In this document: piece by piece, positions 43,795 through 56,050 of the stretch
Numbering within the stretch: the stretch's first letter is position 1
Layout: each line of letters begins with the position of its first letter
Source: Sulfuriferula multivorans
Lineage (GTDB): Bacteria; Pseudomonadota; Gammaproteobacteria; Burkholderiales; Sulfuriferulaceae
Direction: 5' to 3'
Length of the DNA: 64,000 bases
Assembly: GCF_003851125.1 (NCBI RefSeq)
Contig: NZ_BGOW01000003.1
Span: 62,001 to 126,000, forward strand
Position numbers and translations under genes: made by a program
The notes under the pieces: model-generated
Told to the model about the DNA's origin: nothing
The model's database searches: none
Seen by the model: the letters and a program-made list of their open reading frames with translations, nothing else

Positions 43795-43931
43795 CGGCCT
43801 TGTCTCTGTAACCTGCCGGAAACGATGCCCACTCCATCGGCTTCAAGTTCGACGGCCAAAAACCGATATAGCATTTAATGGCGTTGCCCCGAGAAACAGA
43901 AAAATCCGCAGGTATCGAGGAGGGATGGGGT

Positions 43932-44774
43932 ATGGGAAAGTTTATATCTGGTAAAGCCTGGCTACTCGCCTGCCTGCTGACACTATGGCCCATTCTGGGT
44001 GTTGCGCAGGGAAACACGCTGGTTGTGGGTATATTGCCCACGCTGAGTCCGCGTGTCCTGCTCAATAACTATCAGCCGGTTCGTATCTATCTCCAGCAGA
44101 CGTTAAAACGCCCGGTTGAATTGGTGACTGCAACGGATTTCACGGCTTTCCACAAAAGCACGATGGCGGGCGAATATGACATCGTGGTGACCGCCGCACA
44201 CTTGGGACGGCTTGCACAAATCGAGAGCGGTTATATCCCGCTGGCAACGTATAAAGCAGCGAATCGGGCCATACTATTGACCTCCCTAACTGCCCCGCTC
44301 AAATCCATTCGGGATTTGCACGGCCGTACAGTTGCCACTCTGGATCGCTTTGCGCTGATTACCGGTCAAGCCTTGGCCTGGCTGGAAGAGCAGGGGATAC
44401 GCGAGGGGTCGGATTTCCGTCTGCTGGAAACACCCAGCCATAACAGCTCGGGCTATTCAGTATTGAGTGGAGAAAGCGCCCTGGCCATCATCTCCCCAGC
44501 GGGCTGGAAACAGATGCCGGCGAATATCAAGGAGGGGCTCCAGGTTTATACCCGTCTCCCGGAGATACCGGGTCTCATGTGGCTGGCAAATCCACGTCTG
44601 GCGCGCGAAGTCCCGCAGCTCAAATCAGCGCTGCTGGCTTTTTCTCCAGCCCTGCCCGAAGGCAAGCAGTTCTTCGAAGTGACCGGTTATCTGGGCATGC
44701 GTGAAATCACGCCCGAGGAGATGAAGTCTCTCGATCCCTACACCCGCTATCTTCAGCAACATCTGGACCACTAG
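43932..44774 (+). CDS. PhnD-like periplasmic substrate-binding protein
   Basis: 280 residues. Signal peptide (about 1-24, cleavage near GVAQG), then a phosphate/phosphite/phosphonate-type binding fold with LVVGILPTLSPRVLLNNYQPV and the domain-typical AGEYDIVVTAAHL, PLKSIRDLHGRTVATL. GAGGAGG precedes the ATG; the frame open from 43878 is not needed. No ABC permease or ATPase is encoded next to it; instead the gene for a GGDEF-EAL membrane protein starts within 15 bp. This suggests a sensory, not transport, role. Confidence 0.88.
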   Translation: MGKFISGKAWLLACLLTLWPILGVAQGNTLVVGILPTLSPRVLLNNYQPVRIYLQQTLKRPVELVTATDFTAFHKSTMAGEYDIVVTAAHLGRLAQIESGYIPLATYKAANRAILLTSLTAPLKSIRDLHGRTVATLDRFALITGQALAWLEEQGIREGSDFRLLETPSHNSSGYSVLSGESALAIISPAGWKQMPANIKEGLQVYTRLPEIPGLMWLANPRLAREVPQLKSALLAFSPALPEGKQFFEVTGYLGMREITPEEMKSLDPYTRYLQQHLDH

Positions 44775-44788
44775 CCTTGTCTTTGAAT

Positions 44789-47200
44789 ATGCCGCGCGGC
44801 CTGTCGCTGCGTTCCAAGCTGGTCATACTCTCACTGATCGTGGAAGTGGTGATGCTGACCCTGCTGGTGGTCAACAGCGTACGCCTGAGCCAGGACAGCC
44901 TGCTCAACCAGGCACAAGTACGCTACACGGAACTCAATACCCTGTTCAATGCAGCCCTCGCTGCACCGCTGGCTCAACGGGATTACGCCACCCTGCATGA
45001 GATTCTTGCCGAAAGCGAGCACCAGGACGGGATCGTTTACGCCGTACTGGTAGACAATTCGGGACTTATCGTGGCATCTTCGGGCTGGGAAAAAGGCCGG
45101 GCATTGCCAACATCCATGGCGGCAACGAAGTTTAGCCATGCCCGCACAGATCAGTTCGATACCAGCACGCAAATCATGCTCGCCGGGCAAAAATACGGCA
45201 CTCTATACTATGGCGTCTCAACGCGGTTTCTATCCGAAGCACGCTCCCACCTGGTTCAACAAAGCATATTGATTGCGGGGGTGGAAATCCTTTTGTCTAC
45301 CTTGCTGCTGGCTGGCCTCGGATACTGGCTGACGCGTCACCTTGCCAGTTTGACCCGCGCTTCCGATGCCTTTGCGCAAGGACAGCTGGAAATCCGCCTG
45401 CCGATGCGCAGCAATGATGAGGTCGGCGCGCTGACCCATGCCTTCAACTCCATGGCGGATGCCATTGCCGGACAGATTGGGGCGCTGACGGCAAGCACGG
45501 CCCAACTGCATGAAGAGCAGGCACGCCTGATCGCATTACTGCACGCCATGAAACTGGGCATTCTATTTGCCGATACGGACAACCGCATCATCTATTACAA
45601 CCCGGCGTTTCAGCATATCTGGCGTCTGCCCCCGGACCTGTCCTTGCATGGCAAGTCGCCTGCCGAGGCGATCGCCCAGACTGGCTGCATGCTGGCCGAT
45701 CCAAACCAGCTCGTCAGCCTGATGACGGCATCGGCCGATTCCCCCGAAGAGCACCCTGCCACGGAAATTCGTTTGTCGGATGGTCGATTGCTTACCCGGC
45801 TCAGCCACCCGGTGTATGACGCAACAAAGAAATTTATCGGCCATTTATGGATGTTCGAGGATGTCACTCAGGAGCAGCAAACCGCGCAGCAGCTCGTCTA
45901 TCTCGCAGAACGTGACTCGCTCACCGGCTTGTTCAACCGCCACCGCCTGCATGAAGAAATGGAAAAACTGCTTGCTGAAGCCGAACGCACAGGTACCCAG
46001 GGGGCATTACTATTCTTCGATCTGGATGAATTCAAGTACATTAACGATACCTTCGGACACTATGCGGGCGACGCCACGCTGATCCGTATTGCCACGGAGC
46101 TTTCCACCCTGATCCGTCGCAATGAAGTCCTCGCCCGGCTGGGAGGTGATGAATTCGCGCTGCTGATTCCGCAGATTTCCGATCTGAAACAGGCTGAAGA
46201 TCTGGCGGAACGTGTCGTGCAGGCCATTGCCCGGCTCCCGCTCATTTTCGAAGAACAGCATCTGCACGTCACGATCAGTCTGGGAATTGCGCTCTATCCG
46301 CAACATGGCACCACCATCGAGGGGCTGATCGCCCATGCCGACACCGCCATGTACCAGGCCAAGGCGTGCGGCAAGAACACCTGGCAGGTGTACCGTCCCG
46401 AGCTGGATATGGGCAAGGAAATGGTGGCCCGCCTCACCTGGAATGAGCGGCTATCGCATGCATTCGAAAAAAACCTGTTCCGGCTGCATTTTCAGGGCGT
46501 GTATCACACCGCCGATCGTACCCTGTCGCACCTCGAGGCGCTGGTACGCATGATTGACGAGGAAAAGCCCGGCGAGCTGGTCATGCCGGCACTATTCATC
46601 CCCATCGCCGAAAAATCCGGCAAGATTCTCGAACTGGATCGTTGGGTCATTAACGAAGCGGTCACCGTCCTGGCACGTCACCTCAAGCTGCGCGCCCTGG
46701 CAATCAATCTGTCCGGACGCTCCCTGGCAGACCCGTCATTGCCCGGCTATATTCAGGACACCCTCGTCCGGCATGGCGTCGATCCGCGCCGTTTGCTGAT
46801 AGAGATCACCGAGACCTCGGCAATTGGTGACCTGCTTGACGCGGGCCGTTTCATCGAGGCACTGCATCTGACTGGTTGTGCGACCTGCCTGGACGACTTC
46901 GGCACCGGCTTCTCGTCGTTTGCCTACCTCAAATACCTGAAGGTGGATACGCTGAAAATCGACGGTCTGTTCATTCGCGACCTGCCCAACGACCCTGACA
47001 ATCAGTTGTTCGTTAAATCCATTGCCGACGTGGCCAGAGGAATGGGCAAGATCACCGTAGCCGAGTTCGTGGAGGACGAGGCCACCCTCGAATTGCTGAA
47101 CCGGTTCGGGGTCGACCTCGTGCAGGGCTATTTCCTCGACCGCCCGATTGCCGATCACCCCGCGCTGCGAGGTGAAGCACCCATGGAAAAGTCGGCTTGA
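44789..47200 (+). CDS. HAMP-PAS-GGDEF-EAL membrane protein
   Basis: 803 residues from the ATG. Two transmembrane helices (about 11-32 and 159-180) flank a periplasmic domain; then HAMP (about 181-233), a PAS-like domain (about 255-370), GGDEF (motif GGDEF near 451) and EAL (EAL near 584; DDFGTGFSS). Both cyclic di-GMP synthesis and breakdown motifs are intact. A TTG start at 44777 is also possible; neither start has a clear ribosome binding site, suggesting coupling with the upstream binding-protein gene, which probably feeds its signal. The 3' end is 10 bp from convergent cynS. Confidence 0.9.
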   Translation: MPRGLSLRSKLVILSLIVEVVMLTLLVVNSVRLSQDSLLNQAQVRYTELNTLFNAALAAPLAQRDYATLHEILAESEHQDGIVYAVLVDNSGLIVASSGWEKGRALPTSMAATKFSHARTDQFDTSTQIMLAGQKYGTLYYGVSTRFLSEARSHLVQQSILIAGVEILLSTLLLAGLGYWLTRHLASLTRASDAFAQGQLEIRLPMRSNDEVGALTHAFNSMADAIAGQIGALTASTAQLHEEQARLIALLHAMKLGILFADTDNRIIYYNPAFQHIWRLPPDLSLHGKSPAEAIAQTGCMLADPNQLVSLMTASADSPEEHPATEIRLSDGRLLTRLSHPVYDATKKFIGHLWMFEDVTQEQQTAQQLVYLAERDSLTGLFNRHRLHEEMEKLLAEAERTGTQGALLFFDLDEFKYINDTFGHYAGDATLIRIATELSTLIRRNEVLARLGGDEFALLIPQISDLKQAEDLAERVVQAIARLPLIFEEQHLHVTISLGIALYPQHGTTIEGLIAHADTAMYQAKACGKNTWQVYRPELDMGKEMVARLTWNERLSHAFEKNLFRLHFQGVYHTADRTLSHLEALVRMIDEEKPGELVMPALFIPIAEKSGKILELDRWVINEAVTVLARHLKLRALAINLSGRSLADPSLPGYIQDTLVRHGVDPRRLLIEITETSAIGDLLDAGRFIEALHLTGCATCLDDFGTGFSSFAYLKYLKVDTLKIDGLFIRDLPNDPDNQLFVKSIADVARGMGKITVAEFVEDEATLELLNRFGVDLVQGYFLDRPIADHPALRGEAPMEKSA

Positions 47201-47210
47201 ACCGCGCAAT

Positions 47211-47654
47211 TCAGTACGTCTTGTAGGGCAAAAATTTCCCGTTCAGCACAATCTTGACGCGGTCACCCTTGGGGTCGACCTCGCGCTGGATATCCATGCT
47301 GAAATCAATCGCGCTCATGATGCCGTCGCCGAATTCCTCGTGGATTAGCGCCTTGATGCTGGTGCCATAAACATTGATCAATTCATAAAAGCGATAGATC
47401 AGCGGGTCGGTAGGGATGGCCGTGGGCAGCGAACCTTTGTAGGGCACGATTTGCAGCGCGTCCACGGCTTCCGGCGGCAGGCTGAGCAGCTTGCCGATGA
47501 TGCCGGCCTGCTTCTTGTCCAGGGTCATTTGCCCCATCAGCGCGGCGGTTGTCCATTCCTTGCTCAAACCGATTTTTTTGGCGATATCCACCCATTTCAG
47601 GCCTTTTTTGAGCTTGGCGGCGAGGATCAATTCGGTGACTTCGGTGCGTTGCAT
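47211..47654 (-). CDS. cynS: Cyanate hydratase (cyanase)
   Basis: 147 residues. Converts cyanate and bicarbonate to ammonia and CO2. An N-terminal helix-turn-helix-like domain (1-75), then the catalytic part with Arg88, Glu91 and Ser114, matching E. coli cyanase Arg96, Glu99 and Ser122 in spacing. The end GKFLPYK is typical. AAGGAG precedes the ATG. It is the last gene of the operon with the three transporter genes and the sulfurtransferase, which supports cyanate as the transported compound. Confidence 0.97.
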   Translation of the reverse strand: MQRTEVTELILAAKLKKGLKWVDIAKKIGLSKEWTTAALMGQMTLDKKQAGIIGKLLSLPPEAVDALQIVPYKGSLPTAIPTDPLIYRFYELINVYGTSIKALIHEEFGDGIMSAIDFSMDIQREVDPKGDRVKIVLNGKFLPYKTY

Positions 47655-47682
47655 GGTTTCTCCTTATCGGGTTGTCGAATCA

Positions 47683-48600
47683 TTACACCAGGTGCATGGC
47701 GGGCTGTTTTTGCGCAGGCGGCGGTTTGGCTATGCCCTGATCATCCATTTCTTCGCCCGGCCTGACTTCGGGCGGGTGGCGTGGGTCGCTGTCTGCGGCG
47801 GGCGCCTGCGCCATCTCGCGCGAGCGGCTCACCAGGAAATCCACCAGGTGGTTGCGGATGCGGTAGTACTGCGGATCCTTGTGCACGTCATTGCGCGTAC
47901 GGTTGCGCGACAGCGTATTCACCACGATCTCGGCGATGCGGGCGCGCGGACCGTTGGTCATCAGGATGATCCGGTCGGACAACAGCATGGCTTCGTCCAC
48001 ATCGTGCGTAATCATGAACACGGTTTGCCCGGTGGCGGCGCAGATTTTTAACAACTCATCCTGAATCACGCCGCGGGTCAGTGCATCGAGCGCGCCGAAG
48101 GGCTCATCCAGCAGCAGCATTTTAGGCTGGATGGAAAAAGCGCGCGCAATACCGACGCGTTGCTTCATGCCGCCGGAGAGTTCGGATGGCTTTTTGTGCT
48201 CGGCACCGGTCAAGCCCACCAGGTCGATGAACTGCTGGCAGTGGCTGCGCACTTTGTCTTTTCGCCAGTCCGGCCAGCGCGACTTGACGGCGAATTCGAT
48301 ATTTTTCATCACCGACAGCCATGGCATCAACGCGTGGCCCTGGAACACCACACCGCGATCCAGGCTGGGGCCGGCTACCTCGCGTCCATCCATGATCACC
48401 ACGCCGGCGCTGGGCTCATCCAGTCCGGCCAGCACGTTGAGAATGGTGGATTTGCCACAGCCTGAGTGGCCGATAATGCAGACGAATTCGCCCTTGCCGA
48501 TACTGAAATGTACATTCTCGAACACCACCAGCGGCGCCTGGCCACGGCTGCCCGGATAGATCCGGCTCAAGGCTTCAACTTTCAAAAAATCGGTTTGCAT
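47683..48600 (-). CDS. NrtD/CynD-type ABC transporter ATP-binding protein
   Basis: 305 residues. Walker A GHSGCGKST, signature LSGGMKQRVGIARA, Walker B LLLDEPFGALDALT, H-loop ITHDVDEA. The C-terminal ~50 residues are Pro- and Ala-rich and not part of the ATPase fold. Belongs to the nitrate/sulfonate/cyanate group of importers. In the same operon as a matching permease, binding protein and cyanase. Confidence 0.93.
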   Translation of the reverse strand: MQTDFLKVEALSRIYPGSRGQAPLVVFENVHFSIGKGEFVCIIGHSGCGKSTILNVLAGLDEPSAGVVIMDGREVAGPSLDRGVVFQGHALMPWLSVMKNIEFAVKSRWPDWRKDKVRSHCQQFIDLVGLTGAEHKKPSELSGGMKQRVGIARAFSIQPKMLLLDEPFGALDALTRGVIQDELLKICAATGQTVFMITHDVDEAMLLSDRIILMTNGPRARIAEIVVNTLSRNRTRNDVHKDPQYYRIRNHLVDFLVSRSREMAQAPAADSDPRHPPEVRPGEEMDDQGIAKPPPAQKQPAMHLV

Positions 48601-48613
48601 GGTTTCGCCATCC

Positions 48614-49459
48614 TCAATCGTTATACGCCACCAGCCGCGACAGGCCGGCGAATACCAGGTCCAGCAGCATGCCGACCACGCCGATCATGAGGATGGCAAA
48701 GATGACATTGGTGAGGCTCAGGTTGTTCCACTCGTTCCACACGAAGTAGCCGATGCCGGTGCCGCCCACCAGCATTTCCGCCGCCACGATCACCAGCCAG
48801 GCGATCCCCATGGAAATGCGCATGCCGGTGAGGATGGTAGGCGCGGCGGCGGGCAGCACCACCCGAAACGCTTTGCGCAGCGCAGACACCTCCAGCGTTT
48901 TGGCGACATTGAGCCAGTCGCGCCTGACCGATGCCACGCCGTAGGCAGTGTTGATCAGCATCGGCCACAGCGAGCAGATGAAAATTACGAAAATCGCTGA
49001 AGCGGACGAGTCCTTGATGGTATAGAGCGCCAGCGGCATCCATGCCAGCGGCGAAATCGGCTTGAGCAACTGAATGTACGGGTTGAGTGCACGCTGCATC
49101 AACGGTGACATGCCCACCACAAAACCCAGCGGAATGGCCACCAGTGCGGCCAGCGCAAACCCTGCCAGCACGCGCGCCAGCGAATAGGCGAGCTGGATGC
49201 CGATGCCTTTGTCATTGGGGCCATGGTCATAGAACGGATCCGACAGCCTTTCGCGCAGGGTATGGCCCAATTCAGCCGGTGTCGGCATCCCCGAATTCTT
49301 CACTGCAGCGCCCCCCATCAGCGCCGCGTATTCCGGGTCGACAGCGGCTGTATCCGCTGCCTGCGGCAAGGTGGCCAGATACCATCCCAGCAGCACGGCG
49401 CTTAGCAGCAGCACGGATACAATCAGCGCCTTGAAATTCAGCGACTTGATCATGATCAT
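48614..49459 (-). CDS. NrtB/CynB-type ABC transporter permease
   Basis: 281 residues with about six to seven hydrophobic helices. The EAA-like loop VASVRRDWLNVAKTLEVSA and the motif GMRISMGIAWLVIVAAEML are typical of nitrate/taurine-type permeases. The start ATG overlaps the binding-protein stop by four bases (ATGA). The frame continues upstream to 49957, but that part lies inside the binding-protein gene and is not real. Confidence 0.93.
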   Translation of the reverse strand: MIMIKSLNFKALIVSVLLLSAVLLGWYLATLPQAADTAAVDPEYAALMGGAAVKNSGMPTPAELGHTLRERLSDPFYDHGPNDKGIGIQLAYSLARVLAGFALAALVAIPLGFVVGMSPLMQRALNPYIQLLKPISPLAWMPLALYTIKDSSASAIFVIFICSLWPMLINTAYGVASVRRDWLNVAKTLEVSALRKAFRVVLPAAAPTILTGMRISMGIAWLVIVAAEMLVGGTGIGYFVWNEWNNLSLTNVIFAILMIGVVGMLLDLVFAGLSRLVAYND

Positions 49460-50805
49460 GCCCGGCTGATCTTGAACGACTTCAGATATTGCTCGGGTTT
49501 GGCCGGGTCGAACACCTTGCCCATGATGGTGTACTTGGCGTAGTTGCCGGCAGGGGCAGGCAGACCCATCTCTTTCAGACGCTTGCGCGCATCGGTGGCA
49601 AGAAACACATTTTCCGCCACTCCCTGGTAGTTGACTTCGCCTTTGAGATAACCCCAGCGCTTGAGTTGGGTCAGCATCCACACCGCCATGGACGGCCACG
49701 GGAACGGATCGAAATCGACCCGGTCGGGCACGTTGCGCACCTTGCCCAAACCGTCGGCAAAACGTCCGGTCATTACCTGTTCCAGCACCGGGATGGGCTG
49801 GTTGAGGTAATTCGCCGGGGCGATGGCCTTGATGATATCGGCGCGGTTTTCCGGCTTGTGGGCATAGTCGGTGGCGCTGGCAATGGCGCGAAACAACGCC
49901 GCAAAAGTATTGGGGTGGGCCTTGGCGAAGCCCTCTGAAATGCCGAAGGCGCAACACGGATGGCCGTCCCAGATGTCGCGTGACAGGGTATGGATGAAGC
50001 CCACCTCCTCGTACACCGCGCGCTGGTTGAAAGGCTCCGGCCCGAGGAAACCATCGATGTTGCCGGCACGCAGGTTGGCCACCATGTCCGGCGGCGCCAT
50101 GATGCGCAGTTCCACGTCCCGGTCCGGATCCAGGCCATGCTCAGCCAGAAAATAACGCAGCAGCAGATTGTGGATCGAGTAGTCGAACGGCAGGCCAAAT
50201 TTGAAGCCTTTCCACTGCTTGGGGTCGAGCTTGTCCTTGTGTTTGACATGCAGGGTGATGGCCTGGCCGTTGATGTTCTCGATCGCCGCCACATCCATCG
50301 GCTGTGCCTGCGAGCCCAGCCCCAGGCTGATGGCGAGCGGCATCGGAGAGAGCATGTGCGAAGCGTCGTATTCCTTGTTCATTACCTTGTCGCGTACCAC
50401 AGCCCAGCCCGCTGTCTTGAGCAAGGAAACATTCAAACCCTCGCGCGAGTAGAAGCCCATCGGCCCGGCCATGATGATGGGCGTGGCGCAGGTGATGGGA
50501 ACAAATCCGATTTTCAGGTCAGTTTTTTCCAGGGGTGCACGGTCTGCAGCCAGCGCCTTGGCGGCAGATAGCGGAAAAAAAGTAGAGACCGCCGCCAGCG
50601 CAGTGCCTGCCCCCACCGCGCGAATAAAGTTACGGCGCGTCTCGTCATGCGGAAACAGTGCGCGCATGACTGTGGATTCGACCACCCGGCCGATACGAGC
50701 GTCTTCGTCCTGCTGGTGCTCGATCTGGCTGGCATGGCGACCACAACTGCAACCCTGGGCGGAGAGCTGGATATTAGGATCAAACGGATCGTCAAAACCG
50801 GACAT
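49456..50805 (-). CDS. CmpA/NrtA-type substrate-binding protein with Tat signal
   Basis: 449 residues. A long N-terminal cytoplasmic-type leader contains CSCGRH (Cys19, Cys21), followed by a twin-arginine signal RRNFIRAVG (Arg57-58) and a hydrophobic core, then the NrtA/CmpA binding fold starting LKIGFVPITCATPIIMA. Relatives bind nitrate, bicarbonate or cyanate; its position before cynS favours cyanate. The Tat motif implies folding, possibly with a cofactor, before export. It is the second gene of the operon, 60 bp after the sulfurtransferase gene. Confidence 0.92.
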   Translation of the reverse strand: MSGFDDPFDPNIQLSAQGCSCGRHASQIEHQQDEDARIGRVVESTVMRALFPHDETRRNFIRAVGAGTALAAVSTFFPLSAAKALAADRAPLEKTDLKIGFVPITCATPIIMAGPMGFYSREGLNVSLLKTAGWAVVRDKVMNKEYDASHMLSPMPLAISLGLGSQAQPMDVAAIENINGQAITLHVKHKDKLDPKQWKGFKFGLPFDYSIHNLLLRYFLAEHGLDPDRDVELRIMAPPDMVANLRAGNIDGFLGPEPFNQRAVYEEVGFIHTLSRDIWDGHPCCAFGISEGFAKAHPNTFAALFRAIASATDYAHKPENRADIIKAIAPANYLNQPIPVLEQVMTGRFADGLGKVRNVPDRVDFDPFPWPSMAVWMLTQLKRWGYLKGEVNYQGVAENVFLATDARKRLKEMGLPAPAGNYAKYTIMGKVFDPAKPEQYLKSFKISRA

Positions 50806-50865
50806 GGATATCTCCCTGATGTTATTGATTGATGTTGGCGGTGGTGGGTAAAAGCAACGTCCGGC

Positions 50866-51723
50866 TCAGCTAGCCGGAAAACCTTCTTCTATCGGTAGCG
50901 CCGGATCGCGTGACCACTCGTTCCACGAACCGAAGTAAATTTTCACGTCATGCACGCCCGCCTCTTTCAAGGCCAGGAAAGTATTGGAAGCGCGCGCCCC
51001 CTTGAAGCAATAAACGTAGACCCTGGAGTGCGGGTGGATACCGACGGTCTGGCATTCCGCCAGTACTTCATCGCGTGCCTTGAATACGATTCCTTCATCT
51101 ACCGGTTTCATCAGCCGGTACCATTCCAGCCAGCGCGCGCCGGGGATGCGGCCCTTGCGCGGACAAAAATCCGGACCGTAAGGCGAGGAGCTGGTAGCGA
51201 TCCATTCGTCCACATCACGCACGTCTAGCTTGATCACCGACGGATCATTCAGTGCAGCCAGCATTTCATCCTTGTCCACCATTACAGCACCCGGCTCACA
51301 GGCAAGCGGGAATTGGGCGGGGGTTGGCAGGGTAGGCTCAGTGGTGGTTGGCAAGCCAGCGCTGACCCAGGCCTGATACCCGCCATGCAGTACCCTAGCC
51401 TTGGGGTAACCCAGATATTTGAGCAAAAAATACCCCCGGCAGGATTGTCCAAAACCGGTGTTCATGGTGTCTTCGTAGACCACGGCGGTTTCCTTGCCGG
51501 ACAGGCCCACCGCGCCAAATGCTTCGGCGAACTTATGTTGCATGGCCTCCAGGCCTTCGTGGTCGGAGGTGGCGAGATAGGTAAAAATCTCGCGCAGATT
51601 AATTGCGCCCGGAATATGTCCGCTGGCGTAGGCGCCCGGATCACGCGTGTCGATCACCACGATAGGCTCGGCAGTCATTGCCTGTTGGAGTTGCGCTGGT
51701 TCGATCAAAACTTGGCCGCTCAT
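50866..51723 (-). CDS. Two-domain rhodanese (thiosulfate/mercaptopyruvate sulfurtransferase)
   Basis: 285 residues, two rhodanese domains (1-125 inactive, 145-280 active). The active Cys is residue 239 in the loop CFKGARAS, which is closer to the thiosulfate type than to the mercaptopyruvate CGTGVTA loop. Could form thiocyanate from cyanide and thiosulfate, or pass sulfane sulfur to another protein. It heads the cyanate operon, behind a near-consensus sigma-54 promoter and a 22-bp inverted repeat. Confidence 0.92.
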   Translation of the reverse strand: MSGQVLIEPAQLQQAMTAEPIVVIDTRDPGAYASGHIPGAINLREIFTYLATSDHEGLEAMQHKFAEAFGAVGLSGKETAVVYEDTMNTGFGQSCRGYFLLKYLGYPKARVLHGGYQAWVSAGLPTTTEPTLPTPAQFPLACEPGAVMVDKDEMLAALNDPSVIKLDVRDVDEWIATSSSPYGPDFCPRKGRIPGARWLEWYRLMKPVDEGIVFKARDEVLAECQTVGIHPHSRVYVYCFKGARASNTFLALKEAGVHDVKIYFGSWNEWSRDPALPIEEGFPAS

Positions 51724-51738
51724 GCTGATCCCCTTTCT

Positions 51739-51760
51739 GTTGATTCAGTGGTGAATCAAC
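51739..51760. promoter_or_regulatory. Perfect inverted repeat in the sulfurtransferase leader
   Basis: Arms GTTGATTCA (51739-51747) and TGAATCAAC (51752-51760) with spacer GTGG. It ends 16 bp before the sulfurtransferase start and overlaps the expected transcription start of its sigma-54 promoter. It may be an operator or an mRNA hairpin. Confidence 0.65.
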
Positions 51761-51764
51761 TTGA

Positions 51765-51779
51765 GCAGCAAACGTGCCA
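51765..51779 (-). promoter_or_regulatory. Sigma-54 (-24/-12) promoter for the sulfurtransferase-cyanate operon
   Basis: The minus strand reads TGGCACG TTTG CTGC. GG and GC are exactly 12 bases apart, and only one position differs from TGGCACG-N4-TTGC. Expected transcription start near 51753, giving a ~30-base leader. The nearby gene for a sigma-54 activator supports it. Confidence 0.8.
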
Positions 51780-51814
51780 GCTTCACAAATCGTCTTTCCA
51801 GGCCCTGCTGCGCC

Positions 51815-51822
51815 AATTGTTA
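51815..51822. promoter_or_regulatory. AATTGTTA motif, copy 1 (candidate activator site)
   Basis: Within CAATTGTTAAAA, about 60-70 bp upstream of the predicted sulfurtransferase transcription start. The same 8-mer recurs at 51872-51879 and 53516-53523. Confidence 0.4.
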
Positions 51823-51830
51823 AAAACGCC

Positions 51831-51845
51831 CGCACAATATGTGCG
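51831..51845. promoter_or_regulatory. Dyad CGCACA-ATA-TGTGCG in the divergent region
   Basis: A perfect 6-bp inverted repeat with a 3-base centre, midway between the sulfurtransferase and the activator gene. Candidate protein-binding site. Confidence 0.4.
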
Positions 51846-51871
51846 CGATTTTTGCTTACATTGTGTAGACA

Positions 51872-51879
51872 AATTGTTA
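51872..51879. promoter_or_regulatory. AATTGTTA motif, copy 2 (overlaps the activator's own -10)
   Basis: Follows the small dyad TTGT-GTAG-ACAA (51861-51872). A TTGCTT box (51852-51857) lies 17 bp before TGTTAT (51875-51880), a plausible sigma-70 promoter for the activator, so a protein bound here could shut off its own gene. Confidence 0.4.
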
Positions 51880-51899
51880 TTTCCAGAGGAAGCGCGTCC

Positions 51900-53489
51900 A
51901 TGTCTAAAGCTCAGTCCACCCATCGCCCCCTACCGGAAATCCTGGTGGATGAAGAATTGCTGGTGATGCGCGAGGCCTCCGCACTAATGGGTAAAAGCCC
52001 GGACCAGAACTATGTCATCCGAGAGATTCTGCATTTGTTGTCCGAATTGCTCGGCTTGAATCGTGGACGTGTGGTTTTGCCTGATATCGATAGTGGAGAG
52101 TTGTATATCGCCCACGCCTACGGTTTATCCGCCAAAGAGATGAAACGCGGCCGTTTCCAGCCTGGTGAAGGGATCACCGGGCGCGTGATGCAGAGCGGAC
52201 AAATGATGATTATCCAGGACGTGGATAACGAACCGGCATTCCTGTTTCGCAGCGTGGAACGCGAGCATCTGCCGCACGAAACGGTGTCGTTCATTGCCAT
52301 GCCGGTGGAGCAGGGTGGCCAGGTACTGGGGGTGCTGGGCGTGCACCGGCTACGGGACCGTCCACGGCCGCTGGCGCGCGATCTGCAAATACTGAAAATT
52401 GTCGCCACGCTGATCGCACAGGTAATCATGCTCAACCGTTATATCCAGGAACGCACCGCGCGCCTGGAGTCAGAAAATCGCGAACTCAAATGGGCGCTGA
52501 ACAAGAATCCGTCGAGCCTGGGCGCATTTGGCATTGTGGGCGAATCGATGCCGCTACGGCGTGCATTAAAACAGGTGGAGCAGGTGGCGCAAACCGATGC
52601 GACAGTTCTGCTGCTGGGGGAATCCGGCACCGGAAAGGAGCTGTTTGCGCGTGCCTTGCACCTATCCAGTGCACGCCGCGACTATCCGTTCATCAAGGTG
52701 AACTGTGGCGCGATACCGGAAAATCTGTTCGAGTCCGAGCTGTTTGGCTACGAGAAAGGCGCGTTTACCGGCGCCACCAGCAGCCGCCCCGGCTATTTCG
52801 AGCAAGCCAACGGTGGCAGCCTGTTCCTTGATGAGATTGGCGACATGCCGCTGGCGATGCAGGTCAAATTGCTGCGCGTATTGCAGGAGAACACCATTCA
52901 GCGCGTTGGCGCGCGCCGCGAAACCACGATCAATGTTCGTATCGTCGCCGCCACCAATCAGGATTTGCAGCAGCTGGTAAGCCGCGGAAAATTTCGGCTG
53001 GATCTGTTTTATCGAGTCAATGTGATCCCGGTGCGGCTACCCGCTCTGCAGGAGCGTCCGGAGGACATCCGCCATCTGGTGCGCTATTACTTGAACCAGA
53101 TCAACCAAAGCTACCAGCGCAATGTGAATATTGCGCCGGAGGCACTGGAGCGGCTGGCCGCTTATAGTTGGCCAGGCAATGTGCGGCAATTGTGCAACGT
53201 GCTGGAACGGCTGGCGCTGCTCTCCGAGAACCGGCTGATCGGCGCAGCGGAGGTGGCTGCGGTCATTGCAGCTGAATCGGCCGGTGAACACCTGGCGTTG
53301 CCAGTTACCGCGCCGGTATCCGCAATCCCGGACAGTTTGCGGCCCTACCATGCAGTGCAGTCCGGTGAACGTGACAGCATCGTGCAGGCACTGGCGCAAT
53401 GCAACGGCAACAAATCGCGTGCCGCGCAGCGAATCGGCATGACTTTGCGCCAGCTGAATTATCGGATCCAGCGCCTGGAAATTGCCTGA
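51900..53489 (+). CDS. NifA-like sigma-54-dependent activator (GAF-AAA-Fis)
   Basis: 529 residues. GAF sensor domain (about 25-185), then an AAA+ domain (about 210-440) with Walker A GESGTGKE, the sigma-54 contact loop GAFTGA, Walker B LFLDEIGD and arginine-finger region; the C-terminal Fis helix-turn-helix reads [29 protein letters not shown] precedes the ATG; an open frame to 51774 lacks similarity. No nif genes are nearby. Its neighbours on both sides have sigma-54 promoters, so these are its likely targets. The GAF ligand is unknown. Confidence 0.95.
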
Positions 53490-53515
53490 CCGGCATGCGG
53501 GAAAGCTGTCGCGCA

Positions 53516-53528
53516 AATTGTTAACAAT
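53516..53528. promoter_or_regulatory. AATTGTTA motif, copy 3, within the palindrome ATTGTTAACAAT
   Basis: A perfect 12-bp palindrome (53517-53528) about 110-120 bp upstream of the predicted OsmC-operon transcription start, a normal place for an enhancer-type activator site. It does not match the NifA site TGT-N10-ACA. Confidence 0.5.
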
Positions 53529-53611
53529 CTGTGCACCACCGTGACCGCTTCAATTTCCCATATTGTAAAAATAATATTTGAAATCATTGCATTAGTTTAC
53601 GCATACTGCCC

Positions 53612-53627
53612 TGGCATGGCGCTTGCA
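53612..53627 (+). promoter_or_regulatory. Sigma-54 (-24/-12) promoter of the OsmC operon
   Basis: Reads TGGCATG GCGC TTGCA; GG at 53613-53614 and GC at 53625-53626 are 12 bases apart. One mismatch to TGGCACG-N4-TTGCA. Expected start near 53639, 48 bases before the ATG. Confidence 0.85.
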
Positions 53628-53686
53628 TTGATGTCGGTGTGCCCTACAGGCCGCCACTATTCATTGAATGCGAGGAGGAATAAACC

Positions 53687-54229
53687 ATGCCCGAAGTTGC
53701 CGCTCTGAAAATGACTACCACGCTGACCCCGATTGATAAAAACGGGCTCGATGCGCTGGCGCAAAAAGGCAAAGCCAATCCAAACAATGTGGTCACGCTG
53801 AAAACGAAAACGGTGTGCGAGAGCAAATTCCGCAACCTCAATTTCGTGCGCGACCTGCCCGCCCATGTGATTGATGAACCGCCCAACCTGCTGGGTGATG
53901 ACACCGCGCCCAATCCCTCCGAAGCGGCGCTGGCCACGTTGGGCTCTTGCCTGTCGGTAGGTCTGCACGCCAATGCGGTGGCACGCGGCATCACGCTTAC
54001 AAAAATCGAGCTGGAGCTGGAAGGCGATATCAACGTCACGGCGGTGTGGGGCGTGGGCGACACATCACCGGACAAAACGCTGGGCTTGACCGATATTCGC
54101 GTCAAGGTGCATCTGGAAGGCGATGCCAGCGACGCGGAGCTGCAAGCGCTCGTCGCCCATGCCAATCAATGGTCTCCCGTAGCCAACACCCTGCGCAATC
54201 CGGTAAACGTGGCAGTGGCCCTGGCCTGA
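53687..54229 (+). CDS. OsmC-like protein missing the second conserved Cys
   Basis: 180 residues. OsmC/Ohr fold: the first conserved Cys is residue 88 in ATLGSCLSVG, followed by the central helix. The second active-site Cys of the peroxidase members, normally in a CPV motif, is Ser here (WSPVANTLRNPV). So a classical thiol-peroxidase cycle is unlikely; it may be a binding or sulfur-carrying protein. A long N-terminal part (1-40) precedes the fold. GCGAGGAGGAA precedes the ATG. First gene of the sigma-54-driven operon. Confidence 0.88.
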   Translation: MPEVAALKMTTTLTPIDKNGLDALAQKGKANPNNVVTLKTKTVCESKFRNLNFVRDLPAHVIDEPPNLLGDDTAPNPSEAALATLGSCLSVGLHANAVARGITLTKIELELEGDINVTAVWGVGDTSPDKTLGLTDIRVKVHLEGDASDAELQALVAHANQWSPVANTLRNPVNVAVALA

Positions 54230-54286
54230 TAGCACGATTGAAAAAGCACATCACCACGGCAGTCAGGTGGCGACTAAGGAGCTGAG

Positions 54287-55438
54287 ATGCAAATAGAAAT
54301 GATGGAGTACGCGCATGAAGCCGGTACGGATGAATCTCTCCCCGGTATTACTGCGCTGATCCGCGACCATCTTTGCCCACACGTGCTGGATATTGATCTC
54401 AAGGGTGAATATCCGGGCGAATTTTTGCACAGGCTCGGCGCTATCGGCGGCTTTGGTGCGCTTGTTGCGCCCCAGTTCGGCGGCACTGGTAGGGGTTTGA
54501 AAAACGCGGTTAGGGTCATCGAGGACGTATCGCGCGAATGCGTTGCCACCGGCTTTTTGGTATGGGCGCAGAATGCCTGTGCCTGGTACCTGCAAAACAG
54601 CAGCAATATTGCGATTCGTAACGGCGTATTGCCGCAAATCGCCAGGGGCGACGTGTTGGGAGGCACGGGCCAGTCGAATGCAATGAAATCCTGCGTTGCC
54701 ATCGAGGAAAACCGTCTTCAGGCAGTGCGCGTGAACGGCGGCTATTGCGTGAATGGCACGCTGCCGTGGGTATCCAACATCGGCGTGGATCACTATTTCC
54801 ATGTCGGCATAGCCGTGGCAGGCGAGCCGGGGCTGATGATCGCCCTGGTGCGCGGCGACTACCCCGGTCTGACCCTCAACCAGAATGCGCATTTTATTGC
54901 GATGGAAGGCACCAACACGTTTGCCTGCCAGTTCAAGAATGTATTCATCGCCGACGCCGTCGTGGTATCGCACCCGAATGAATTCGAGCGCTTTCGCGCG
55001 CGCACCAAATCCGCCTTTATCCTGATGCAGATGGGCATGGGGCTGGGATTGGTGGATGCCTGCGTGGCCATGATGAAGCGTTCCAACAAAACCCACGGCC
55101 ACGTAAACCGTTTCCTCGATGACCAGGCCGAGGATATCGAAGCGGCGTTGCTTGGCGCACGCGCAGCCTGCTATCGTCTGGCGGACGAAATCGACGCCTC
55201 GCCCGACACCAGCCAGGAGCGCGACACCATCGCCATGCGTCTGCTGGGCAGCGAGCTGTCGCTCAAGGCAGCCAACTCTGCCATGCTGCATCTCGGTGCC
55301 AAGGGTTATCTGGTGAGCAACGCCGCGCAGCGACGCGTGCGCGAAGCCTACTTTGTCGCCATCGTCACGCCGGCCATCAAGCATTTACGCAAGGAATTGC
55401 ACGACATCGACAGCGGCAACCACGCATGCAGCGTATAG
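54287..55438 (+). CDS. Acyl-CoA dehydrogenase-like flavoprotein
   Basis: 383 residues with the three parts of the acyl-CoA dehydrogenase fold: helical N-terminal domain (1-120), beta domain (about 120-235; LGGTGQSNAMKS and VNGTLPWVSN) and C-terminal helices. The C-terminal catalytic Glu region of true dehydrogenases (YEGT-type) is not present; the stretch is QRRVREAYFVAIVTP. That is more like the flavin-monooxygenase/desulfurisation branch (DszC, SfnC-like). In this operon with a rubredoxin it may act on a sulfur or nitrogen compound. Confidence 0.85.
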   Translation: MQIEMMEYAHEAGTDESLPGITALIRDHLCPHVLDIDLKGEYPGEFLHRLGAIGGFGALVAPQFGGTGRGLKNAVRVIEDVSRECVATGFLVWAQNACAWYLQNSSNIAIRNGVLPQIARGDVLGGTGQSNAMKSCVAIEENRLQAVRVNGGYCVNGTLPWVSNIGVDHYFHVGIAVAGEPGLMIALVRGDYPGLTLNQNAHFIAMEGTNTFACQFKNVFIADAVVVSHPNEFERFRARTKSAFILMQMGMGLGLVDACVAMMKRSNKTHGHVNRFLDDQAEDIEAALLGARAACYRLADEIDASPDTSQERDTIAMRLLGSELSLKAANSAMLHLGAKGYLVSNAAQRRVREAYFVAIVTPAIKHLRKELHDIDSGNHACSV

Positions 55439-55466
55439 ACGCAACACATAAACATTAAGGGACCCC

Positions 55467-55859
55467 ATGATCACTTTCAGTGTCAGCCTCGATGTTGATA
55501 CCACGACGGCCAAACTTACCGAAGCCATTCTCGCCGTACCGATGGGGCTGGTGGCGCATATCAATGGCCAGGCCAACGCCGCCAAGCGCGGCTTGACTGT
55601 ACCGTCCGACCAGATTCTGGAGGTATTCCGCCCGGATTTTGCGGTGCGCGTCTGGCAGGCGGACAAACGCGCCGGCATAGACATTCCGCTGCGTATCCAT
55701 GTTTACGAAGCGGGCGGCAAAACCTGGGTTGCCATGCGCAGCCCGGGCGCGGTGTTCGCCCCCTACAACAATGCCCTGCTAGACCAGATTGCAACCGAGC
55801 TGCAGCCAATTTTCGACAAAATCCTGTCCTGCCTTACTCCTTACAAGAAAACACCATGA
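55467..55859 (+). CDS. DUF302-like small protein
   Basis: 130 residues. The middle fits DUF302: an SDQILEVFRPDF segment, then AGIDIPLRIHVYEAGGKTWVAMRSP. Members are small alpha/beta proteins of unknown function, often near sulfur or redox genes. Stop and rubredoxin start overlap in ATGA, which shows tight coupling. Confidence 0.75.
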   Translation: MITFSVSLDVDTTTAKLTEAILAVPMGLVAHINGQANAAKRGLTVPSDQILEVFRPDFAVRVWQADKRAGIDIPLRIHVYEAGGKTWVAMRSPGAVFAPYNNALLDQIATELQPIFDKILSCLTPYKKTP

Positions 55860-56050
55860 ACGCAATGACTGAAACCGAAACGTTGACGCGCAAGTGGATA
55901 TGCATGATCTGCGACTATGTGTACGACGAAGCGCGCGGCATCCCGGACGAAGGCATTGCGCCCGGCACGCGTTTTGAAGACATTCCCGACAGCTGGGCAT
56001 GTCCGGACTGCGGCGTAACCAAGCACGATTTTGAACTTCTGCAAGAATAA
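55856..56050 (+). CDS. Rubredoxin
   Basis: 64 residues. Iron site from CMIC (about Cys18, Cys21) and CPDC (about Cys51, Cys54), with the family segments DYVYDEARG and WACPDCGVTKHDF. A ten-residue N-terminal extension precedes the domain. One-electron carrier; in this operon the flavoprotein two genes upstream is the natural partner. The stop lies 3 bp from the convergent YihY gene. Confidence 0.96.
   Translation: MNAMTETETLTRKWICMICDYVYDEARGIPDEGIAPGTRFEDIPDSWACPDCGVTKHDFELLQE

Follow-up and report, generated by a model that had tools for sequence, protein, structure and literature searches.

Two enzymes that act on thiocyanate have been named, thiocyanate hydrolase and thiocyanate dehydrogenase (TcDH) (PMC5328954, PMC5744179, PMC6504805). 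Operons of the former (scnBAC), which belongs to the carbonyl sulfide pathway, have been described with a transporter and cyanase in their layout (PMC5328954). TcDH, the enzyme of the cyanate pathway, yields cyanate and sulfur (PMC5328954, PMC6504805); it is a copper enzyme that delivers electrons to cytochrome c and serves energy metabolism (PMC6504805). Furthermore, a metatranscriptomic study reported cyanase transcripts, assigned for the most part to unclassified Proteobacteria and Betaproteobacteriales, and identified none of TcDH (PMC6172326). Here we analyse a cluster of ten genes from Sulfuriferula multivorans, situated in a 64-kb stretch of DNA (hereafter, the window) of a 3.62 Mb genome in 87 contigs. 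The cluster unites a sigma-54 activator, an ATP-binding cassette (ABC) transporter, cyanase, rhodanese, an OsmC-like protein, a flavoprotein with acyl-CoA dehydrogenase fold, a DUF302 protein and rubredoxin. On balance, we favour the view that these genes form a sigma-54-controlled module assimilating thiocyanate through cyanate, in which case the cluster, along with its regulator, importer and partner proteins, would offer a specific candidate for the missing step.

A search confined to open-licence PubMed Central found no description of this gene set, in line with the earlier sequence-only reading, which knew of no described system with exactly these genes. No thiocyanate-to-cyanate enzyme of this flavoprotein kind was found described in the same collection.

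The gene cluster and its conservation

All ten genes were confirmed at the positions given by the sequence-only reading, with the NifA-like activator between two operons, using open reading frames and Pfam and NCBIfam profile searches. The minus strand encodes cyanase (cynS, 47211..47654; PF02560, 126 bits; NF002773, 224.5 bits with a cut-off of 150), three components of an Nrt/cyanate-type ABC transporter designated T1, and a two-domain rhodanese, i.e. a sulfurtransferase (50866..51723; PF00581 in two stretches). The T1 components are the ATPase (47683..48600; TIGR01184, 313 bits, cut-off 291.8), the permease (approximately 48614..49462; TIGR01183, 227.8 bits, cut-off 209) and the substrate-binding protein (49456..50805; PF13379, 285 bits). 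On the plus strand, the activator (51900..53489; PF00158, 243.7 bits, with PF01590 and PF02954), whose start was chosen by us within a frame open from 51774, is followed by the OsmC-like protein (53687..54229; PF02566, 75 bits), the flavoprotein proposed here to oxidise thiocyanate (54287..55438; PF02771 and PF00441), the DUF302 protein (55467..55859; PF03625, 51.8 bits) and rubredoxin (55856..56050; PF00301, 80.8 bits).

For the neighbourhood survey, named genomes were scanned with a flavoprotein alignment of 15 rows, and the best 80 loci of a larger total were used. Removal of one duplicate left 79, of which 70 measured at least 10 kb and contained the flavoprotein, 50 with the activator and 20 without it. 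Among the 50 activator-bearing loci, OsmC was present in 49, rubredoxin in 48, NrtA in 45 and cyanase in 34; a rubredoxin-reductase-like protein occurred in 29/50, DUF302 in 28/50, the binding protein of a second transporter, T2, in 14/50 and rhodanese in 7/50. The 20 loci lacking the activator in the stretch examined, some of which end at contig ends, contained T2 in 16 cases and cyanase in one, and ten had OsmC, with an AhpD-like protein in the other ten. Over all 70 loci, an OsmC or AhpD-like partner was found in 69, a T1 or T2 transporter in 67 and rubredoxin or its reductase in 55.

The order and orientation of the genes varied between loci. Related sets were detected on plasmids of Acetobacter (OsmC, flavoprotein, rubredoxin, Nrt-type genes, cyanase and a sigma-54 gene), Marinobacter (transporter, sigma-54 gene, OsmC, flavoprotein, oxidoreductase and cyanase) and Rhodobacterales (transporter, OsmC, flavoprotein and sulfurtransferase). 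The closest relative of the flavoprotein among the matches listed, 78% identical, came from a metagenome-assembled genome of Sulfuriferula. A search for additional recurrent neighbours returned mostly the synteny of close kin. The sequence-only reading had proposed to look for this neighbourhood in other genomes, and the two operons were found to co-occur widely with the same activator. Judged from these genomes, the cluster is a real, conserved, widespread and modular gene system.

It should be added that plus-strand genes at 43878-47200, convergent with cyanase, encode a PhnD-like protein followed by an 807-amino-acid protein of HAMP-PAS-GGDEF-EAL-like architecture (both named by eye), and that homologues of the latter precede cyanase at loci L054 and L076 too. 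A Neisseria gonorrhoeae record (L134:6210-8365) carries a cassette of AhpD-like protein, flavoprotein and rubredoxin; within the 15 kb examined, neither transporter type (T1 or T2) was matched. One activator-less cluster is preceded by an AraC-type regulator (L100:3571-4524), whose best match, to the reactive chlorine regulator RclR, is below threshold (106.6 bits, cut-off 400).

The activator, promoters and upstream elements

The activator combines a GAF domain, an AAA+ domain, the GAFTGA motif (encoded at 52758-52774) and a Fis-type helix-turn-helix, features of sigma-54 enhancer-binding activators, and the genome contains one rpoN match. Assignment to NifA proper was rejected, its 473.7 bits being below the NCBIfam equivalog cut-off of 528.85.

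The -24/-12 matches noted earlier on both operons were recovered, each with one mismatch to TGGCACGN4TTGC and correct spacing: at 51765..51779 on the minus strand for the rhodanese-transporter-cyanase operon and at 53612..53626 on the plus strand for the OsmC-rubredoxin operon. In the window alone such sites are not beyond chance (4 observed against 3.5 expected with at most one mismatch), and the pair was counted as real on account of its recurrence ahead of the corresponding genes in relatives. This was surveyed in 95 loci and the window, close kin and two duplicate pairs included, by screening 460-nucleotide stretches at gene starts with up to two mismatches allowed and GG and GC fixed; by this rule, 380 of 5000 random stretches had a site. 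Sites were located upstream of OsmC in 52/81 cases, of NrtA in 33/62, of the activator in 33/72, of rhodanese in 7/16, of the flavoprotein in 20/96 and of cyanase in 7/49. Compared with the random stretches, OsmC and the Nrt genes are thus enriched for sites, whereas cyanase and the T2 operons are near background. In the 17 closest loci the OsmC-side site was found in 16, and the 17th had no intergenic region by the cut used.

The same closest loci revealed the dyad ACAA-N-TTGT, the top one of many dyads scanned, in 22 of 34 intergenic regions, where simple shuffling gave an expectation of 0.15. In the window, a putative activator-binding palindrome lies at 53513..53532, at a distance of 79 bp from the promoter of OsmC; it is the sole site of the genome within two mismatches of its own pattern, with 0 expected in the window. 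A variant of it, which falls short of that pattern and is likewise a putative activator-binding element, is situated at 51856..51878, 76 bp from the minus-strand rhodanese promoter, so that the two related palindrome-type elements flank the activator gene. Either could be bound by the activator. Given the wide co-occurrence with the same activator, the shared promoter type and the related upstream elements, the two operons and the activator probably constitute one sigma-54 regulon.

A perfect 8-base inverted repeat, TTGATTCA-GTGG-TGAATCAA, was noticed by eye at 51740-51759, in the interval that separates the minus-strand promoter from the start of the rhodanese gene; it was not seen by eye at the same place in locus L054.

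The flavoprotein, transporters and partner proteins

The AlphaFold model of the flavoprotein had a predicted local distance difference test score (pLDDT) of 91.8, and all 50 PDB matches listed were folds of acyl-CoA dehydrogenase type (TMq 0.80-0.85, 16-23% identity). Alignment columns 244 and 361 are the two known catalytic glutamate positions of acyl-CoA dehydrogenases. Phenylalanine or methionine occupied column 244 in 11/11 sampled family members, in contrast to glutamate in 14/16 ordinary enzymes; column 361 was threonine in 11/11 members and glutamate in the remaining 2/16 ordinary enzymes. With glutamate absent from both positions, an ordinary acyl-CoA dehydrogenase was rejected, and desaturation of acyl-CoA by this protein is unlikely. 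Residues invariant in and specific to the family (94 sequences) include Cys85, Lys134, Glu140, Arg318, Arg349, Arg352 and Glu353. None of the NCBIfam cut-offs was reached by the flavoprotein, the best score being 71.4 against a required 600 for a desulfinase model.

Co-occurrence was assessed in 369 genomes of the class. The flavoprotein had matches at E ≤ 1e-20 in 48 of them; 14 below 1e-45 were taken as members, and the remaining 34, whose matches were no better than 9.8e-27 at 23-28% identity, were counted as ordinary acyl-CoA dehydrogenases. Cyanase was present in 13/14 flavoprotein genomes and 38/355 others (Fisher p 2e-11, no kinship correction), with G324, whose flavoprotein is 33% identical, as the exception. 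A T1 or T2 binding protein occurred in 14/14 versus 13/355 (Fisher p 3e-18, again with no kinship correction).

The substrate clue comes from T2, which is present in many relatives of the cluster. Counted at E ≤ 1e-40, its binding protein had 17 copies in 16/369 genomes, eight in the cluster, seven within 2 kb of scnC (thiocyanate hydrolase) and two elsewhere, one of these at a contig end; it was found in 8/14 flavoprotein genomes. Conversely, thiocyanate hydrolase gamma was above its cut-off in 9/369 genomes, seven of which carry T2. T2 proteins linked to the hydrolase grouped in a single clade of the phylogenetic tree (support 96/99), next to those from the cluster; the branch below was weak (88/52), and several rows are long. 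In our interpretation, T2 would import thiocyanate, and T1 would be an importer of cyanate type that may also take thiocyanate. The sequence-only reading had suggested one pathway for cyanate, thiocyanate or cyanide; since T2 is shared with thiocyanate hydrolase operons, thiocyanate is favoured among the three, with cyanate as the product. Taken as a whole, the interpretation given in that reading is partly supported.

Furthermore, close T1 homologues, scoring 568 bits or more against 267 for the next match, were identified in 17 genomes, 15 of which have cyanase. A distant homologue of the flavoprotein (27.8% identity) on the Synechococcus plasmid pANL adjoins a T2-like transporter and lies near cysK, in a sulfur-regulated region.

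Regarding further transporter genes, S. multivorans has a second Nrt-type binding protein (G000:C3:229590-230825), just 37% identical and perhaps serving nitrate uptake. At L170:2440-8606, a T2 binding protein that belongs to neither the cluster nor a thiocyanate hydrolase locus has, some 3 kb away, a neighbour resembling by eye AprA, adenosine 5'-phosphosulfate (APS) reductase. Thiocyanate hydrolase loci differ in having two consecutive T2-type permease genes (L143, L144, L163, L164 and L169) or one (L165-L168).

Among the partners, the OsmC-like protein retains a single invariant cysteine, Cys88, in 52/52 sequences and in 27/27 of a second subgroup, and in the same sets has Ser163 at the position of the second cysteine of hydroperoxide reductase; when aligned with Ohr 6mjn, a weak match at E 0.028, Ser163 falls opposite the cysteine. 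The OsmC/Ohr thiol peroxidase mechanism uses two cysteines (PMC5157978). An ordinary two-cysteine OsmC peroxidase was rejected, as serine replaces the second of them. For the AhpD-like proteins, a single representative was examined; it contains a CxxC motif and scores above the TIGR00778 cut-off. These features suggest that OsmC-like and AhpD-like proteins could form a mixed sulfur intermediate. In rhodanese, Cys95 and Cys239 were conserved in 14/14 sequences with letters at those positions.

Proposed pathway, alternatives and known systems

In the pathway that we propose, the ABC transporter, which is of T1 type in the window and of T2 type in many relatives, would take up the linear anion, and electrons would pass from NAD(P)H through rubredoxin to the flavoprotein, which would oxidise thiocyanate at its sulfur. 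Cys88, the sole invariant cysteine of OsmC, or in other lineages the CxxC of the AhpD-like protein, might capture the oxidised sulfur species, with release of cyanate and transfer of sulfane sulfur to rhodanese. Cyanase would then convert cyanate and bicarbonate to ammonia and CO2. The GAF domain of the activator would sense an effector, and both operons would be switched on from the elements, which lie slightly less than 80 bp upstream of their promoters. What the sequences show directly is the set of genes and how far it is conserved, where promoters and elements lie, the link of T2 to thiocyanate hydrolase, the co-occurrence with cyanase and the missing catalytic residues of the dehydrogenases; it is the substrate, the electron flow, the order of steps and the binding of the activator that we infer in this scheme. 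More tentatively, and with clearly less confidence than in thiocyanate assimilation as such, we suggest a third biochemical route for thiocyanate, spread through Proteobacteria and plasmids, in which a rubredoxin-fed flavoenzyme S-oxygenates thiocyanate to a hypothiocyanite-like intermediate; this would be captured on the OsmC/AhpD-like cysteine, cyanate would be released and a persulfide left for rhodanese.

Several observations weigh against thiocyanate assimilation by this cluster. The main gap is that the window has T1 alone and no T2. About 2 kb from cyanase, T1 close homologues were found in ten genomes, five of which have no strong flavoprotein; as this pairing persists even there, T1 may carry only cyanate. 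The T2 operons show no excess of -24/-12 sites (ATPase 5/47, binding protein 2/41 by the rule above), and on the Nrt/rhodanese side the site was in its usual place in 8/17 closest loci and missing there in 9/17, all nine of Thiobacillus type. Of 30 genomes queried from the best 80 loci, the 14 with the sister type (activator-less, with T2-like transporter) had cyanase in just three cases, one of which also carries a full cluster (L087), as against 14/16 of the remainder; if the sister type produces cyanate, it mostly does so with no use of cyanase. The two of that remainder that have no cyanase are Halomonas genomes (L126 and L127). Moreover, two papers consider cyanase unreliable as a marker of the cyanate pathway (PMC5328954, PMC6504805).

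A cyanide oxygenase is an alternative that we hold to be improbable: the flavoprotein would oxidise cyanide to cyanate, cyanase would complete the conversion and rhodanese would detoxify the rest. Both of the latter enzymes are in the cluster and, hydrogen cyanide (HCN) diffusing into cells, no dedicated importer would be needed, which is compatible with a cyanate-type transporter in the window; this explanation, however, does not account for a transporter family that is found otherwise mainly beside thiocyanate hydrolase and is present in 8/14 flavoprotein genomes. We give about the same low credence to an alternative in which sulfur would be obtained from a different small organosulfur molecule (sulfonate or thio-compound) and the cyanase-transporter operon would simply be co-regulated to supply nitrogen. 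The cyanase-poor sister clusters would fit it, as would the sub-cut-off matches of one T2-type binding protein to SsuA/TauA models, the pANL homologue near cysK and the desulfinase as best, far sub-threshold, match of the flavoprotein, but cyanase in 13/14 flavoprotein genomes and T2 beside thiocyanate hydrolase in 7/17 cases argue otherwise.

Stress defence, in which OsmC/AhpD, rubredoxin and flavoprotein would detoxify reactive species (peroxide or hypothiocyanite) and cyanase would remove cyanate, appears to us quite unlikely. The near-constant OsmC or AhpD-like partner (69/70 loci) and the sub-threshold RclR match of an AraC-type regulator from one sister cluster speak for it; an importer and sigma-54 control would, however, be odd in such a system, and OsmC is devoid of the second cysteine of the peroxidase mechanism. 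That the two operons are unrelated and neighbours by accident would agree with a promoter pair that by itself is not beyond chance in the window; this is already disfavoured by the neighbourhood survey, given recurrent co-occurrence in varied orders and orientations, plasmids included, and the related elements upstream of both operons, and we regard it as very improbable.

Returning to thiocyanate assimilation through cyanate, the proposed system can be set against those known. With thiocyanate hydrolase operons, several of which have cyanase nearby, relatives of the cluster share the T2-type ABC transporter; instead of the hydrolase, the cluster contains a flavoprotein-rubredoxin system, and scnC (TIGR03887) had no match in the S. 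multivorans genome. T1 and cyanase together resemble the cynABDS operon for cyanate uptake and hydrolysis; the version described here differs in being placed beside a sigma-54 activator and joined to an oxidative module. Oxygenases of acyl-CoA dehydrogenase fold of the SfnB/DszC type belong to the same broad family and are sulfur-linked enzymes rather than dehydrogenases; the flavoprotein is, however, far below their cut-offs (28.8 of 430.9 and 25.5 of 850, respectively), and its partners differ. With TcDH the cluster would have its products in common, cyanate and sulfur; in contrast to that copper enzyme of energy metabolism, it would rely on a protein of acyl-CoA dehydrogenase fold and rubredoxin, and would more likely serve the supply of nitrogen and sulfur.

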